DNA of 64,000 nt, taken from assembly GCF_030142075.1 (NCBI RefSeq), contig NZ_CP126241.1:3286001-3350000 (forward strand), given 5' to 3'. Positions 32,960-40,274 of the stretch are shown here, in pieces (the stretch's first letter is position 1; the number at the start of each line of letters is the position of its first letter). The stretch is from Arthrobacter sp. zg-Y20 (GTDB lineage: Bacteria; Actinomycetota; Actinomycetes; Actinomycetales; Micrococcaceae). The notes below the pieces were generated by a model that was not told the origin of the DNA, ran no database searches, and saw only the letters and a program-made list of their open reading frames with translations. Made by a program: the position numbers and the translations under genes.

Positions 32960-34357
32960 ATGCTGCTCGAACGCATCTACGACGAGGATCTGGCCCAGGC
33001 CAGCTACTTCATCGGGTGCCAGCGCAAGGGCGAGGCAGTGGTGGTGGACGCCCGCCGGGACATCAGCCCCTATCTGGAACTAGCCGCCGCCAACGGCATG
33101 CGCATTGTTGCAGTGACGGAAACCCACATTCACGCCGATTACCTCTCCGGCACCCGCGAACTGGCCGCCGCCACCGGCGCCGAGATGTATGTTTCCGGCG
33201 AAGGCGGCACCCACTGGCAGTACCGCTTCGAGGCCCACCGCCTGCACGACGGCGACACCGTGGCCCTGGGCAACATCACCCTCAAGGCCGTCCACACCCC
33301 CGGCCACACACCGGAGCACCTTTCCTTCCTGGTCACCGACGGCGCCTTCAGCAAGGACCCCGGTTACCTGCTTTCCGGCGACTTCGTGTTCTCCGGCGAC
33401 CTCGGCCGGCCGGACCTGCTGGATGAAGCCGCCGCCGGAGTGGACACCCGCTTCGAGGGCGCTCGGCAGATCTTCCGCAGCCTGCAGCAGAAGTTCCTCA
33501 CCCTCCCGGACCACATCGCCGTTTACCCGGGGCACGGCTCCGGCAGCGCCTGCGGCAAGGCCCTGGGCGCCCTGCCCTCCACGACCGTGGGCTACGAGCG
33601 GCTCTACTCCTGGTGGGGGCCGTACCTGGCAGCCAATGATGAGCAGGGCTTCGTGGATGACCTGCTCAACGGCCAGCCGGATGCCCACGCCTACTTCGGC
33701 CGGATGAAGCGTGAAAACCGGCAGGGCCCTGCCGTCATGGGCGAACGTCCCGAGCTGGAAGAACTCACGGCCGACGACGTCGCGCGCGGCCTCGAGGAGG
33801 ACGGGATCACCTTTGTGGACACCCGCCCCCACACCGCCGTGCATGCGGGAACCGTGGCCGGTTCCGTCAACATCCCTGCAGGCAACAAGACCGCCAGCTT
33901 CGGCGCCTGGGCCGTGGACCCGGAAACGGACAGCCGCCCGCTGGTCCTCCTCGCCGCTGACGCCGCAGCCGCCCGCGAAATGTGGGACCACCTGGTCCGT
34001 GTGGGCATCGACAAGGTAGCCGGCTACACCACCAGCCTCGAAGGCCTGCCCTCCTACAACCCGCAGCGCATCCTTCCGGAAGACCTGGCCGGCTTCGACG
34101 CCGCACTGGTACTGGATGTACGCAACAAAACCGAACACATTGACGGCCACATCCCCGGCTCCAGCCAGCTCAGCGCCGGGCGGGTCCTGTGGAACCAGGA
34201 CCAGCTGCCGGCCGGGGCCAGCATCGTGACGTACTGCCAGAGCGGTGTACGCAACTCGGTGGCCGCCAGCACGCTGCGCCGCGCAGGGTTCGACGTCGTC
34301 GAGCTCGAGGGCAGCTACGCCGGCTGGAAGCAGTGGAAGGACGCCCAGGAGGCCTAA
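32960..34357 (+). CDS. Persulfide dioxygenase-rhodanese fusion, CstB-like
   Basis: A 465-residue protein. Residues 1-250 are a metallo-beta-lactamase-fold persulfide dioxygenase: THIHADYLSGTREL supplies the iron-binding His-His-Asp, and HTPGHTPEHLSF and SGDFVFSGDLGRPDL follow. A first rhodanese-like domain (about 265-355) lacks a catalytic Cys (VLLAADAAAAREMW). The second (about 365-460) has the active loop YCQSGVRNS. This is exactly the CstB layout: it oxidises low-molecular-weight persulfides, releasing thiosulfate or sulfite. It has a strong AAAGGAGA ribosome-binding site and three CstR-type operators upstream. Confidence 0.93.
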   Translation: MLLERIYDEDLAQASYFIGCQRKGEAVVVDARRDISPYLELAAANGMRIVAVTETHIHADYLSGTRELAAATGAEMYVSGEGGTHWQYRFEAHRLHDGDTVALGNITLKAVHTPGHTPEHLSFLVTDGAFSKDPGYLLSGDFVFSGDLGRPDLLDEAAAGVDTRFEGARQIFRSLQQKFLTLPDHIAVYPGHGSGSACGKALGALPSTTVGYERLYSWWGPYLAANDEQGFVDDLLNGQPDAHAYFGRMKRENRQGPAVMGERPELEELTADDVARGLEEDGITFVDTRPHTAVHAGTVAGSVNIPAGNKTASFGAWAVDPETDSRPLVLLAADAAAAREMWDHLVRVGIDKVAGYTTSLEGLPSYNPQRILPEDLAGFDAALVLDVRNKTEHIDGHIPGSSQLSAGRVLWNQDQLPAGASIVTYCQSGVRNSVAASTLRRAGFDVVELEGSYAGWKQWKDAQEA

Positions 34358-35321: not shown

Positions 35322-35325
<4 letters not shown>

Positions 35326-36086
35326 CAGTCGCCTTCGCGGCAACCCTGCTGCTCTCCGTGCTGATCGGGCTTTCGCTCGGCCTGCTCGGCGGTGGCGGGT
35401 CCATCCTCACCGTGCCGATACTCACCTACGTCGCCGGGCTGAATCCCCGCGAGGCAATTGCCTCCTCGCTGTTCGTTGTCGGCGCGACTTCCGCGGTGAG
35501 TGTCCTCGGGCATGCCCGCAAGGGCAGGGTGATGTGGCGCACCGGGCTGCTGTTCGGCGCGGCCGGCATGGTCGGCGCCTTCGGCGGCGGCCAGGTGGGA
35601 GGCCGCCTGCCGGAGACCGTCCTGATGGTGGCGTTCGCCGCCATGATGCTGGCTGCCTCCGTGGCCATGATCCGCGGCCGCAGGGGTGCCCCGGCCGACA
35701 GTCGGACGGGCGAGCAGCCGGCGCCGAAGGTACTGCTGATGGGGCTGGTCATCGGATTGGTGGCAGGACTGGTGGGTGCAGGCGGCGGTTTCCTGATTGT
35801 GCCCGCGCTGGCGCTGCTGGGCGGGCTGACCATGCCAGCCGCCGTCGCAACGTCGCTGGTGGTGATTTCCTTGCAGTCGCTGGCCGGACTGGGCGGCTAC
35901 CTCACCACCGTGAACCTTAACTGGCCGCTGGTAGGCGCAGTTACCGTATTGGCCGTCCTCGGCTCCCTCGTCGGCGCCCGGCTGGCCGGAAAGATTCCGG
36001 AAGCCGCACTTCGGCGCGGCTTCGGGCTCTTTGTGCTGGTCATGGGGATGTTCGTCCTGGCCCAGGAGCTGCTGGGCCTGCGCTAG
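35322..36086 (+). CDS. TauE/SafE-family sulfite/organosulfonate exporter
   Basis: A 254-residue membrane protein with about eight helices in two pseudo-repeats. Each repeat starts with the family glycine motif: LSLGLLGGGGSILTVPIL and VAGLVGAGGGFLIVPALALL. TauE/SafE proteins export sulfite, sulfoacetate or related anions, which suits the products of persulfide oxidation by the CstB-like enzyme. ATG at 35322 has AAGGA eight bases upstream and overlaps the shifted frame of the rhodanese gene. Regulation by the CstR-like protein through the operator at 34720 is likely. Confidence 0.92.
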
Positions 36087-36218
36087 GCGCGCGCGGACCG
36101 CCTTCTAGCCCCCGGGTTTTCCCACACTCTGGTGCTGCGGCGGTTGGTGTTTCCCCATCCGGCACCCACGCCACACTCGGTGGGATCTTGTGCAAGCAGC
36201 ACCTAGTTAGAGCAGAGC

Positions 36219-36246
36219 GCCGGCAGGGGTATTTTCCCCTGCCGGC
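36219..36246 (+). terminator. Rho-independent terminator after the exporter gene
   Basis: GCCGGCAGGGG, loop TATTTT, CCCCTGCCGGC, followed by CCCCTTTTAT: a perfect 11-bp stem and a T-run. It closes the rhodanese-exporter unit and also marks the left edge of the AT-richer segment. Confidence 0.85.
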
Positions 36247-36318
36247 CCCTTTTATACGGGCCGGATCTGTCCTGCCCGCCGATGAAGGCGGCCGAAGGCC
36301 CCCGCGGGCCCCTCCGGC

Positions 36319-36870
36319 CTAATGACCCAGGCTCCGCTGACCACCAATTTCTTGAAATCTTTGTGCAACACTGTCCAGCTGCCCACCGAACTCCTCTAGC
36401 CAAGGTTCCATGTTCCGAGGAGATGCTTCAAGCCACCAAGTCTCTCCGGACCCGGTTCCGGTATGCTGACCTTTGGTCCCGATAACAAATATATCGAGGT
36501 CAGACTTCGGTATTAACCAAGCGTGCATATCAAACGGTGACAAGCCGAGGCATAAGCAGTAGTCATAGTCTCCCTGCCGGATTTGTTGAAACCGGTAATA
36601 TCCGGTATCCCAGAGGGTCGAGAACTTGACCTGAACAAGAGTGCCGCCGAAGTCCAAATAGATCTGGTTTTTTATAGTCAGCTGCTGAGGGAACATCCCA
36701 TAGAGGTTTGCCCAACCGGTTACTAATCGCCGTGAGATGGACCCTTTTGTCGCTGATGGCTGTGCTAAAACCCATTTAAATGGACTATCGTCCCAAGCTT
36801 TACTGCCGGGATACTGAGACTCCATCCCTTGAACCAGCGAAGCTAAGTATTCTAGATCATGGCTAGTCAT
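36319..36870 (-). CDS. Predicted nuclease-like protein of the AT-richer insert
   Basis: A 183-residue protein unlike its neighbours in codon use. The core IYLDFGGTLVQVKFSTLW has the spacing of a PD-(D/E)xK-type active site (Asp, then QxK), and YYRFQQIRQGDYDYCLCLGL and HAWLIPKSDLDIF follow, a pattern I associate with restriction-endonuclease-like proteins. The C-terminus (EPWLEEFGGQLDSV) is characteristic of the same group. It may be a stand-alone defence nuclease; no methylase is adjacent. ATG at 36870 has GGGGGAG upstream. It is divergent from the Rex-like pair. The family call is tentative. Confidence 0.6.
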   Translation of the reverse strand: MTSHDLEYLASLVQGMESQYPGSKAWDDSPFKWVLAQPSATKGSISRRLVTGWANLYGMFPQQLTIKNQIYLDFGGTLVQVKFSTLWDTGYYRFQQIRQGDYDYCLCLGLSPFDMHAWLIPKSDLDIFVIGTKGQHTGTGSGETWWLEASPRNMEPWLEEFGGQLDSVAQRFQEIGGQRSLGH

Positions 36871-37228
36871 CGGAGCTCCCCCAGAGTGTGGTCAGGTCTT
36901 GCTTCTAACTTCGCGCAAACCTACACCCGCCTACGCCCCCGGTCCATACCGGAACGTATCGAAAGGTCAGAAACATTTTTCAGGTGGAATATTCCCACGT
37001 CCGCAAATCAATGAACTCTTACGAATATCTGAGACCTAGCACGCTGACAGCAGAGCAACGCTACTAGTTCCCAGCTTGCTCTGTGAACATCAGTGCAAAG
37101 TCCCGTGCACCCAACTCGCCATCGCCTCGTCTTGGTCATCCTTAGATTCGGTGCCCGGCCTCCTGACCATCTAGATGTAGGTCCTGAAACAGCGATGTGA
37201 ATGGTTTACTTGTCTCACAAACTTCATT
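36871..37228. other. AT-richer intergenic region of the insert
   Basis: About 360 bases between the nuclease-like gene and the Rex-like pair, with lower GC than the surrounding chromosome. I find no credible gene, tRNA, integrase or clear direct repeat. It must hold the two divergent promoters. CCGGTCCATACCGG (about 36939-36952) is a small dyad. Confidence 0.5.
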
Positions 37229-38215
37229 GTGGTGAGTGATATTTGCGCTGAGGCGCGGTTGGGGGTCATTAGAGTGGCGGGCGATCTAAAGCACGTAAAG
37301 CAACGCGAACGGACGATAGGGTTTTACGAGATTGTCGAGGTTGACCCGAAAGGCAATACCGTGCGAATGAATCACGTGGACTGGTCTCGTACACTCGCCG
37401 CTCTCGACGGTACGAAGCTAGGCGACCGAGTTTTCGAGGGCAGGAACCGCACTCTCATCGGCGAGACGATCTCTCATAACGGTGAGTTGCACCTAAAGAT
37501 GATGCGGGTGCGTGACGAGAGCGCGTGGATTAGCGTCTATCGACCTAGCGCCGATTCGGTGGAGGATCTCGACCTGAATGACTCCGCTCTTCTCGAAACT
37601 TCAATCGTCTCTTTTCTAAACTTTGGGAACATAATAGGACTGATCCAAGGCTCACCATCCGCACCAAGTCCAACAGCTGTGGCGGAGTGGATAAACGGTA
37701 TTGATCTGCTGACAAAGAAAATCGAAGTGCTACCGATCGTTTCCGAGGATACGAGCCGAAAACTGAGCTTGTCTTCGGAGACCTCTCGTATTGAAACACG
37801 AATCCATACCAGCAAAGCTGACGCGCTTGAGTCACACGGCTCCAAACTATCTGGGGTACTCCGGACAATTCGGCAGCAGTATGGTCCTATGACAGTGACG
37901 GTTATCCTGCAAGCCTCCCGGGCAAAGGCGCAATCGGAGGGGCGCCATATGTTGAGAGAGGAAGCGGGAACCCTGCTGGACGCGGCCGCTGGAGCAGACG
38001 TACAGTCGGCCAAGGCGAAGCTGATTTACCTGGATGCAGACGAAGAGGCAACGACCGAAGAAGTGAACTTTGTGAACCAAAAGATTACTGCAAAAAGGAA
38101 GATTGCTACGTTGTCCGAGGACGGCAGCCCTATTCGGAACGGTTCGGCCGTTGACGCCATTCTAAGTGCAGCCGCGGACCACGACGACGAACTACGCAGG
38201 ATAGTGGGTGGATAA
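37229..38215 (+). CDS. RexA-like soluble protein, candidate phage-defence sensor
   Basis: A protein of up to 328 residues with no match I can name with certainty. Its layout follows lambda RexA: a GFYEIVEVD start, a leucine-containing segment before residue 70, a GELHLKMMRVRDESAWISVY strand pair, then S(x)EDLDLNDSALLET and SFLNFGNIIGLIQGSPSAPS, which parallels the RexA SFLFVEGDTIGF region. A wlIEVLP-type segment (KIEVLPIVSED) and two alpha/beta segments follow. The start is uncertain: GTG at 37229, or GTG at 37274 with GGGGG eight bases upstream, which begins just before the RexA-like region. The four-helix membrane gene downstream mirrors RexB. GC is low for this genome, so it was probably acquired by transfer. 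Confidence 0.55.
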   Translation: MVSDICAEARLGVIRVAGDLKHVKQRERTIGFYEIVEVDPKGNTVRMNHVDWSRTLAALDGTKLGDRVFEGRNRTLIGETISHNGELHLKMMRVRDESAWISVYRPSADSVEDLDLNDSALLETSIVSFLNFGNIIGLIQGSPSAPSPTAVAEWINGIDLLTKKIEVLPIVSEDTSRKLSLSSETSRIETRIHTSKADALESHGSKLSGVLRTIRQQYGPMTVTVILQASRAKAQSEGRHMLREEAGTLLDAAAGADVQSAKAKLIYLDADEEATTEEVNFVNQKITAKRKIATLSEDGSPIRNGSAVDAILSAAADHDDELRRIVGG

Positions 38216-38273
38216 CTCAAATGTGTCGTCGCTGCCCCCTACACTGATGCCAGCCGAGCAGGAGGGGTCCGCG

Positions 38274-38846
38274 ATGAAGAACATGGTCCGTTGGATCGCC
38301 GATGCCTGGGTCGACCATATATGGATCGACGCATTCGCCGCGTGTCTAATTCTCGTCGGACACGTGGCTCTCGTCCTAACGACGAGCGGATTCGACTTCC
38401 TGGGCTACGCGTCCACTGCAGAAAGACGAGGGCTGTACTCGTCGGCGGCAATCGTCGTCTCCCTGCTGGGTGCCTTCAGCGGTGTTGTTATAGGACAAGC
38501 AGCTGCGGGCAAGGGAGACCGGATGAAGATGCTGAAAAAGGCAGGGGGGAAACCGCTTGCGGACAATTGGAGAAGTATCTATTTGGCCGCCATCACCGCT
38601 GCTGCTGCCTCCCTCGCTGCCATGGCCATCGATGTCGAGAAGCCCGGAGTTGCTGTTGGAGCAGTACTGATCATTCGATGGGTCTTCGAGGTCGCGTTGC
38701 TTTATACGGTCCTCAAATTCCTTCGGCTCGTAGTGTTGTTTCATCCAATCATCGAATCGTCCTCCCTTGATGACTCAGAGCTGGATGAGAAGTTATCTGA
38801 CGCGGCGGAAGTGACTCCGAAATGGGCCCAACGCAGGGCTGGATAA
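38274..38846 (+). CDS. Four-helix membrane protein, RexB-like partner
   Basis: A 190-residue protein with four hydrophobic helices: WIDAFAACLILVGHVALVL, YSSAAIVVSLLGAFSGVVIG, SIYLAAITAAAASLAAMAI and AVGAVLIIRWVFEVALLYTV. A basic loop (GDRMKMLKKAGGK) follows helix 2, as in RexB. The acidic tail (SSLDDSELDEKLSDA) is cytoplasmic or disordered. RexB is a membrane channel that depolarises infected cells; the same job is inferred here. ATG at 38274 follows AGGAGGGG; a GTG at 38208 overlapping the upstream stop is possible but weaker. Confidence 0.6.
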   Translation: MKNMVRWIADAWVDHIWIDAFAACLILVGHVALVLTTSGFDFLGYASTAERRGLYSSAAIVVSLLGAFSGVVIGQAAAGKGDRMKMLKKAGGKPLADNWRSIYLAAITAAAASLAAMAIDVEKPGVAVGAVLIIRWVFEVALLYTVLKFLRLVVLFHPIIESSSLDDSELDEKLSDAAEVTPKWAQRRAG

Positions 38847-38891
38847 CGGATTGATCAGAATGCGCAAACCGGCAGGAGCGCCGGCGGCCCT

Positions 38892-40274
38892 TTAGACCGA
38901 CCGGGTCTCGCCGGCCCGGTCGGTGAAAGCGGCCGTCAGGTTCCCCGCGAGCGCCTCCTCCACCCGGCGGCCCATGTCACGGATCTCCTCGTCGTCGGCA
39001 GCCACCATCTGGTTGCGCGCGGTCTCAAGTACCAGGGAGTTCTGCCGGCGGAGCTCCGCCCGCTGCGATTCGTTCACGGCGGTGGCCGCACAGTCGCGCA
39101 GCAGCCGCAGCACGGCGGTGAGCACAATAGGTTCGGAATGGGCGAAGCGGCGCACCGGGCCGCAGACCAGGTCCAGGAAATAGCGGTAGTCCCGGCCGTC
39201 GGTGACCAGGCGCTGCACCCCGTGGGCGTCTTGGTGCGCTTCGGGTCCCAGCCGGCGGCGCTGCAGGTCCACCAGCAGGTCCGCGCAGTACCCGGTGGCA
39301 TGGGCTGCAGTGATGGGGTCATTGATGCTCGGCGAGATGGCCTTCACCGCAATGTCGGTCAGCTGCCTCAGCCCCAGCGCCGCATCCTGCTCGGGAGTGC
39401 GTTCGTACCCGATTTCCAGGGACTCGGCCAAGGCGTTCCGGACCGCTGCAAGCGGCACGGTGCCGCCGTCGTCGACCCACACCCGGGCCACCGGGGAGCC
39501 GAGCGTCACGTGGTCGCCGGGCTGGACCATAATCCGCATTTTCAGCCCGTGCTTTTCCAGGGCGGCCATCAGCGGCTTCCAGTCCACCGTCTGCACAATC
39601 CCGCTGCGGCCCACGGGAACCAGGGTGCCGCCGTCGGGCACCGGGAATTCCTGCACCTCGCCCGTTTCGGAGAGCGGATACGTGTCGCGGAGCACGGCCA
39701 GACAGCTCTGGTGCGCGCTGCGCATCATGGTGTCCACCCGCAGGGACCGGGCAATGTGCCCGATAAAGAGCAGCAGCACAATCCCGGAGGCGATGCCCAG
39801 CACGTAGACCAGGCCCACCACCAGCACGGGCACCGGCCGGTCCGCGTCCATCCCGTGCAAACCGGTGATGCTGACCAGGAACGTTCCCAGCAGCACGCCC
39901 AGGACCGCCTGGGTGCGTACGTCGCGGGCAAATTCGCGCAGCAGCCGGGGCGAGAACTGCTGCGAAGCCAGCTGCAGCGCCACCACGGTCAGGGAAAAGG
40001 TCACGGTCACGGCGGTCATCACGCTGGTGGCCACGGTCTGCAGCAGGCTGGACGCGGCGTCGACGCCGGTGGGCCAGATCCAGCGGGCCCAGGCCACGTC
40101 GTCGCCCGGCCGGACCGGCATCAGCAGCAGGGTGACCAGCAGCGCCGCCAGGGAAGCACAGCTCGGCCAGAACCACATGGACGCGCGCAGTCCGTCCCGG
40201 GTGATCCGGAACCGCGGCTCGGGAACACGCGGACCGGGTGCGGCGGTGGTGGAACCGTGGGCTGGCTGAGCCAT
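38892..40274 (-). CDS. DUF2254 membrane protein
   Basis: A 460-residue protein. Four membrane helices occupy residues 30-175, including SVMTAVTVTFSLTVVALQLASQQFSPRLLR, the hallmark segment of DUF2254. A large soluble C-terminal part follows, with GLRQLTDIAVKAISPSINDP and MGRRVEEALAGN. The family is widespread and its function unknown; some members are suspected ion channels. ATG at 40274. It is on the same strand as the histidine kinase upstream, with about 67 bases between, and may be read through from it. Confidence 0.9.
   Translation of the reverse strand: MAQPAHGSTTAAPGPRVPEPRFRITRDGLRASMWFWPSCASLAALLVTLLLMPVRPGDDVAWARWIWPTGVDAASSLLQTVATSVMTAVTVTFSLTVVALQLASQQFSPRLLREFARDVRTQAVLGVLLGTFLVSITGLHGMDADRPVPVLVVGLVYVLGIASGIVLLLFIGHIARSLRVDTMMRSAHQSCLAVLRDTYPLSETGEVQEFPVPDGGTLVPVGRSGIVQTVDWKPLMAALEKHGLKMRIMVQPGDHVTLGSPVARVWVDDGGTVPLAAVRNALAESLEIGYERTPEQDAALGLRQLTDIAVKAISPSINDPITAAHATGYCADLLVDLQRRRLGPEAHQDAHGVQRLVTDGRDYRYFLDLVCGPVRRFAHSEPIVLTAVLRLLRDCAATAVNESQRAELRRQNSLVLETARNQMVAADDEEIRDMGRRVEEALAGNLTAAFTDRAGETRSV

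Follow-up and report, generated by a model that had tools for sequence, protein, structure and literature searches.

A RexAB-like gene pair in a chromosomal insert of Arthrobacter

A low-GC segment in the chromosome of Arthrobacter sp. zg-Y20, analysed here within a stretch of 64,000 nucleotides (NZ_CP126241.1, positions 3,286,001 to 3,350,000; hereafter the window), carries a restriction-like gene and, divergent to it, a gene for a soluble protein followed by a gene for a small membrane protein (Table 1). An earlier reading made from the letters alone (the sequence-only reading) had taken the latter two for a RexAB-like defence pair, and the coordinates, strands and sizes that it gave for the three open reading frames (ORFs) were all correct. 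On the evidence set out below, the region 37229-38846 is quite likely a RexAB-type abortive-infection (phage-exclusion) module that sits in a small horizontally acquired insert and belongs to a branch apart in sequence from the systems of lambda and of the phages CarolAnn and Sbash.

Table 1. Features of the insert and its flanks (positions in the window; aa, amino acids; AF2, AlphaFold2).
Feature	Position	Strand	Basis
RexA-like soluble gene, 328 aa from GTG 37229 or 313 aa from GTG 37274	37229..38215	+	
RexB-like four-helix membrane gene, 190 aa from ATG 38274	38274..38846	+	AF2 helices, conserved residues, linkage
Type II restriction-endonuclease-like gene, 183 aa, no adjacent methyltransferase	36319..36870	-	PADLOC, PHROG
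Divergent intergenic region, ~360 bp	36871..37228	.	Gene layout
Inserted segment (limits approximate)	36194..38886	.	blastn synteny gap vs G131, G223, G279 and G204; GC drop
Presumed TauE-like membrane gene, flank of insert	35322-36086		
DUF2254-type gene, other flank of insert	38892-40274		

The soluble protein is predicted to adopt the RexA fold

The predicted structure of the soluble protein shows the two-domain fold of RexA, in which a second domain is inserted into a split globular domain. Profile-profile comparison with lambda RexA (P 7.5e-4, scoring above 300/300 shuffles) covers the first half of the protein, and hhalign with the larger profile reproduced the register in which the sequence-only reading had placed the GFY start and the SFLNFGNIIG segment against lambda RexA; with the smaller profile the second stretch (SFLNFGNIIG) fell into the identical register. 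Structure and profile comparison lead to lambda RexA and to no enzyme family, in agreement with the kinship first proposed from the letters.

Of 22 family members, 15 have a basic residue (K/R) at position 238 and 14 at position 240 (numbered from a start at 37301), which is only suggestive of DNA binding by the RexA-like protein. K238 and K240 sit on the strand that comes after the second domain's long helix, and the order of these elements, rather than a residue alignment, suggests that they correspond to R219 and K221 of lambda RexA, whose double substitution abolishes DNA binding (PMC11077077).

Among Pfam families at E (expectation value) up to 10, the sole match of the soluble protein was DUF6731 (PF20505), at 22.5 bits against a cut-off of 27. 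We rejected membership and do not file the protein under this family because none of the 396 genomes of the phylum, and not the genome of the window itself (0/1), has a match to it. A below-cut-off match to DUF6731 was also seen in Methanocaldococcus jannaschii, and no study of DUF6731 was found in the open-licence PMC literature. The sub-threshold match is a hint that this family of unknown function may be RexA-like.

The membrane partner has four predicted helices and a basic loop

The frame of the membrane protein is read from an ATG that is preceded immediately by the ribosome-site-like stretch AGGAGGGG; the mechanical ORF starts at GTG 38208. The AF2 model (predicted local distance difference test, pLDDT, 82.5) places helices at residues 17-37, 48-78, 82-119 and 128-178 and so bears out the four-helix topology noted earlier, while a simple hydropathy scale breaks the last helix into two. 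The basic loop after helix 2 that had been called RexB-like is likewise present, with 7 K/R versus 2 D/E in 26 residues (5 versus 1 in 17 residues in lambda RexB), and bears a conserved G-x-R and W. In an alignment of 14 sequences that leaves out the most divergent relatives, the invariant residues are D19, R51, Y55, G66, G81, R83, L95, W99, D120, R151, L155 and D166, with G81, R83, L95 and W99 among those assigned to the basic loop. The putative assignment to RexB rests on position, four helices and the basic loop, not on sequence kinship, and RexBpp of Pseudomonas putida was likewise assigned by position and topology (PMC12894663).

The pair stays together in phage, linear-plasmid and chromosomal loci

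When relatives were gathered by the soluble protein alone, ignoring the membrane protein, a small membrane-protein gene was found next on the same strand in 26/26 other distinct loci, so that the unlinked state which the sequence-only reading had named as a refutation was not seen in any of them. These loci comprise the Gordonia phage RavenCo17, five linear plasmids of the Streptomyces group, four genomes, one viral sequence (counted once though two contigs carry that pair) and 15 genome contigs; the L029 sequence is the same as that of L003. A simple hydropathy script gave 2-5 segments in most partners, and those in L013/L084 and L024 were found separately. A soluble protein of predicted RexA fold and a four-helix membrane partner travel together in a phage, in linear plasmids and in chromosomes. 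The contigs that carry the branch come from Arthrobacter, Enteractinococcus, Herbidospora, Actinomycetospora and Streptomyces, besides the Streptomyces linear plasmids and the one phage.

Occurrence is sparse. Matches to the soluble protein turned up in 2/295 genomes of the family (its own and G110, whose pair is identical to that on the Enteractinococcus coprophilus contig L029) and in 5/394 genomes of the class, its own counted, with no match in the other same-genus genomes searched. The copy in genome G548 was found although the single window sequence does not match it. A tblastn search of the window protein against 50,697 phage records (E up to 1), among them CarolAnn, Blino, Sbash and Sejanus, returned RavenCo17 as the sole match; the single protein searched against genome contigs and viral contigs yielded no confirmed relative, and a 22-row profile searched against viral contigs left 0/108 stretches confirmed.

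The closest relatives found are gp42 of RavenCo17 (47% identity, 92% covered) and the membrane ORF downstream of it (44% identity, 71% covered). Unlike the window pair, these lie in a phage genome, in the order immunity repressor gp43, gp42, membrane ORF, integrase gp41. The membrane ORF (L001, OP434446.1 record 33026-33481) is unannotated and gp42 is annotated as hypothetical, and we found no study of RavenCo17 in the open-licence PMC literature. In the prophage-like G548 locus (L084 8492-12964), a helix-turn-helix (HTH) repressor-like gene, whose HTH_26 match reaches 21.4 bits at a cut-off of 22, is followed by the rexA-like gene, the rexB-like gene, two small ORFs and a serine recombinase gene. 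The layouts of these two relatives, each of which comes right after a repressor gene or a repressor-like one, resemble the lambda immunity region, where rexAB lies behind cI. On all five linear plasmid records (L004-L008) the pair lies no more than ~31 kb from the record end, with a helicase-associated gene upstream in 5/5 and as the immediate neighbour in four.

We also looked at the wider neighbourhoods, scanning 121 of the 156 neighbour genes (called by a simple GC3 script, GC3 being GC at third codon positions) within 4.5 kb of 19 loci, after 35 overlapping, short or large ORFs had been left out by eye. Among the matches listed (the best 25 of 97 Pfam and the best 25 of 87 PADLOC families) are GajB-type helicases, type IV and Mrr nucleases, type I and type IIG restriction models, and transposase and integrase genes. 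We do not claim enrichment for defence islands, because any genome has many helicase matches and the survey had no background sample to set them against.

The pair sits in a true insertion

The segment from 36320 to 38846 has a GC content of 0.533, compared with 0.616-0.701 over the rest of the 64 kb, sampled as 225 stretches of 2527 bp in 250-bp steps, and the GC3 of its three genes (0.52, 0.59 and 0.63) lies below that of the flanking DUF2254 and TauE-like genes (0.88 and 0.85), in accordance with the lower GC and different codon use described before. The flanking gene at 35322-36086 we take to be TauE-like, whereas the DUF2254-type name at 38892-40274 was taken over from the sequence-only reading. 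The DUF2254-type protein is matched, in some cases weakly, in 22/29 same-genus genomes, and in 4/9 same-genus loci that were fetched (G131, G223, G279 and G204) the TauE-like gene adjoins the DUF2254 gene. In blastn comparisons the gap between the two matching stretches is 2-4 bp in G223, G279 and G204, and G131 has 84 bp against 2,693 bp in the window, with a 77-bp intergenic stretch matching as well. In the remaining 5/9 loci the DUF2254 gene matches and a different neighbour stands in the TauE-like position; these loci are uninformative on insertion because the TauE-like gene is not beside the DUF2254 gene. The low-GC segment between the two flanking genes is a true insertion.

No tRNA was found in the window, no integrase is among the insert genes, and the repeat list of the window shows no clear terminal repeats at the ends of the insert. 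The 77-bp stretch (36117-36193) is kept in G131 at 78%, with adjoining DNA not conserved, and its CCACACTC motif reappears inverted at 36874-36891, just upstream of the restriction-like gene. Judging from the gene layout, the promoters of both transcription units presumably sit in the divergent intergenic region; a promoter and terminator scan gave no more matches than expected by chance, and its sole promoter-like match lies inside the restriction-like gene.

The restriction-like gene looks like separate cargo

The third gene of the insert, previously called nuclease-like, encodes a relative of type II restriction enzymes (PADLOC PDLC03515 REase_II, E 2.2e-39; PHROG 6927, E 2e-4), for which a sequence search at E up to 1 turned up no relative of solved structure. 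It has a match in 5/290 genomes of the family, its own included, and in no other same-genus genome searched. A DPPF methyltransferase gene lies directly 5' of three of the four restriction relatives (L081-L083), but not of the one in G236 (L080) or of the gene in the window, and tblastn with the relatives' methyltransferases gave no significant match in the window (best E 0.54). In the window genome as a whole, Pfam N6_N4_Mtase matches one gene and DNA_methylase none. The gene matched, a solitary methylase 0.69 Mb away (G000:C1:2627691-2628515), is 64% identical to the partner methylase of the relatives and has a match in 29/29 same-genus genomes (best identity 90-97% outside its own; two pieces in G685). 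The four genomes with restriction relatives each contain a match to it of 77-82%, in one of them with an internal stop. Because this genus-wide solitary methylase resembles the relatives' partner, the lone restriction enzyme could live on its protection, and a restriction enzyme without its own methylase, licensed by the core methylome, is possible on these sequence comparisons.

A RexA/B-like pair was not noticed beside any of the four restriction relatives, and a joint function of pair and restriction gene is speculation because their link is seen in the window only; the restriction-like gene looks like separate cargo. We give little credence to the idea of a two-layer cassette, in which a methylase-less restriction enzyme, with the host's sites shielded by the solitary methylase of the genus core, would be joined by a RexAB alarm firing on the breaks or recombination intermediates that restriction produces from incoming phage DNA.

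Relation to known RexAB systems

The window protein is predicted to share the fold of lambda RexA (PDB 8TWQ; PF15969, with PF15968 for RexB), besides the profile similarity of the first half, and in both systems the gene after the soluble one encodes a membrane protein whose helix 2 leads into a basic loop; the two relatives behind a repressor or repressor-like gene add a likeness in position. The proteins of the window are larger (328/190 versus 279/144 aa), the copy is chromosomal and lacks cI or cro, no RexB sequence similarity is detectable and there is no Pfam RexA or RexB match. A cI-like repressor upstream is absent beside the window pair, present in RavenCo17 and represented by the weak HTH match in G548, and such a position is usual rather than universal, Sbash and Butters being different (PMC11077077).

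The actinobacteriophage systems CarolAnn gp44/gp43 and Sbash gp30/gp31, with demonstrated defence (PMC6426596, PMC6426606), resemble the window pair in their actinobacterial hosts, two-gene order and four-helix membrane partner; in CarolAnn a repressor adjoins the pair. They differ in that no sequence similarity was detected in either protein, and by profile the family of the window protein lies closer to lambda RexA than to them. We rejected sequence kinship with CarolAnn, Sbash and Sejanus, as both single-sequence and profile comparisons were not significant, and by the same test the lambda profile shows no kinship with the CarolAnn/Sbash profile either. Two further systems were set beside the window pair by description only. 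Butters gp30/gp31 likewise combines a soluble with a four-pass membrane protein (PMC7542560), the soluble one being the effector there (PMC7542560, PMC12894663). RexABpp of a P. putida prophage (PP_5643/PP_5644) owes its RexA kinship to HHpred and structure, not to BLAST, and has a four-helix membrane partner with no detectable RexB homology (PMC12894663); it differs in residing in a pseudomonad cryptic prophage. The sequences compared with ours were those of lambda, CarolAnn, Sbash and Sejanus, and by profile the branch might join the RexA-like proteins of Toast, DumpsterDude, PCoral7, Rubeelu, Butters or P. putida.

Weighing the abortive-infection reading

Several results speak against a RexAB assignment. 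The AF2 model of the soluble protein is of middling confidence (pLDDT 77.5), its VIA structural alignment covers 162/304 residues, and the single rigid-body superposition by Foldseek is poor (template modelling score 0.39, root-mean-square deviation 17.3), for which a differing domain angle is a candidate explanation. The HHsuite probability of the lambda RexA profile match is merely 25.5%, for the first half alone; a 17-row profile gave no significant match to the single sequences of lambda RexA and CarolAnn gp44; profile-profile comparison with CarolAnn, Sbash and Sejanus was not significant either; and the soluble protein does not match Pfam RexA (PF15969) at E up to 10. The membrane protein does not match Pfam RexB (PF15968), its scores against lambda RexB and CarolAnn gp43 were equalled by 13 and 17 of 150 block-shuffles, respectively, and its fold search gave no specific match, being uninformative for helical bundles. 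In addition, the window pair stands alone, with no repressor beside it and a long divergent upstream region, neighbourhood content was surveyed without a background control, and the phage-defence activity of the pair is a prediction by analogy.

Some of these negatives have counterparts elsewhere. CarolAnn gp44, Sbash gp30 and Sejanus gp46 have no PF15969 match at E up to 1 either, which argues that this model marks the lambda branch rather than the fold family. Sequence searches against solved structures gave chance matches only for both proteins of the pair, and such a search would therefore miss RexA. With its RexA placement and the linkage in all 26 loci, the two-gene RexAB-like interpretation first made from the letters is supported, and the pair probably serves as an anti-phage alarm whose kind is known, in a branch missed by the detection models tried.

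In a mechanism whose every step we infer from the analogous systems of lambda, CarolAnn, Sbash and P. putida, a dimer of the RexA-like protein would clasp DNA and act as infection sensor, triggered by DNA-protein intermediates of the phage or by one of its proteins. Once triggered, it would touch the basic helix 2-3 loop of the membrane protein, proposed as the contact site because substitutions in this loop abolish defence in Sbash (PMC6426596, PMC6426606). The contact would open the membrane protein or oligomerise it into a pore, upon which the membrane would depolarise, ATP would fall and growth of the infected cell would halt before phage release.

The chief rival, unlikely in our judgement, reverses the roles, as published for Butters gp30/gp31 (PMC7542560, PMC12894663): the soluble protein would be the effector and the membrane protein would keep it inactive at the membrane until infection. 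The anatomy of a soluble gene with a four-helix membrane gene is the same under either mechanism, and the conserved loop of the membrane protein is to be expected of an active partner but of an anchor too; three of the four described non-lambda Rex-like systems nevertheless act via the membrane protein (PMC12894663). We consider it decidedly unlikely that the pair is instead a prophage remnant, an accessory of the lysis-lysogeny switch that tunes repressor control with no exclusion role in the host. Lambda RexA does bias the CI/Cro switch (PMC11077077) and two relatives sit in repressor-recombinase modules, yet in the window and in the five linear plasmids the annotation shows no repressor-integrase module immediately next to the pair, and the frames are intact all the same. 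This holds for direct neighbours, HTH regulators lying a few kb off in L004 and L006. Annotation of the chromosomal neighbours is partial: six upstream genes were scanned singly, of which five have no Pfam family and one is the HTH gene of G548. Highly improbable is a housekeeping or plasmid-maintenance role, in which the soluble protein would be a RexA-fold DNA-binding protein akin to RdgC and the membrane protein unrelated to it: the sparse occurrence in family and class genomes and the strict pairing do not fit housekeeping. No study linking RexA and RdgC in abortive infection was found in the open-licence PMC literature.

Implications for the RexAB family

The abortive-infection reading places the pair in a family that is itself known. 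The remark of the sequence-only reading that such a system is not usually listed among defence families does not hold for RexAB as such, which DefenseFinder lists, reporting it from Proteobacteria only across ~21,000 genomes, with limited models named as a possible cause (PMC9090908); RexAB-like pairs have also been published for the actinobacteriophages Sbash, CarolAnn, Butters and others (PMC11077077, PMC12894663, PMC7542560, PMC6426596, PMC6426606), and the authors of the P. putida study count five described RexAB-like systems (PMC12894663). It does hold for the branch of the window, since neither protein matches Pfam RexA or RexB or any PADLOC or NCBIfam model. As judged by titles and the beginnings of abstracts in the open-licence PMC literature, no study of a RexAB-like pair in Streptomyces was apparent. 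Within the searches named here, what is new is the branch itself, its occurrence away from obvious prophages, the partner gene left unannotated in RavenCo17 and the structure-based assignment.

A profile built from the sequences of this branch would let defence finders count it. Moreover, copies outside obvious prophages would allow exclusion to be separated from the lysis-lysogeny switch, a question that the RexA structure paper left open (PMC11077077).

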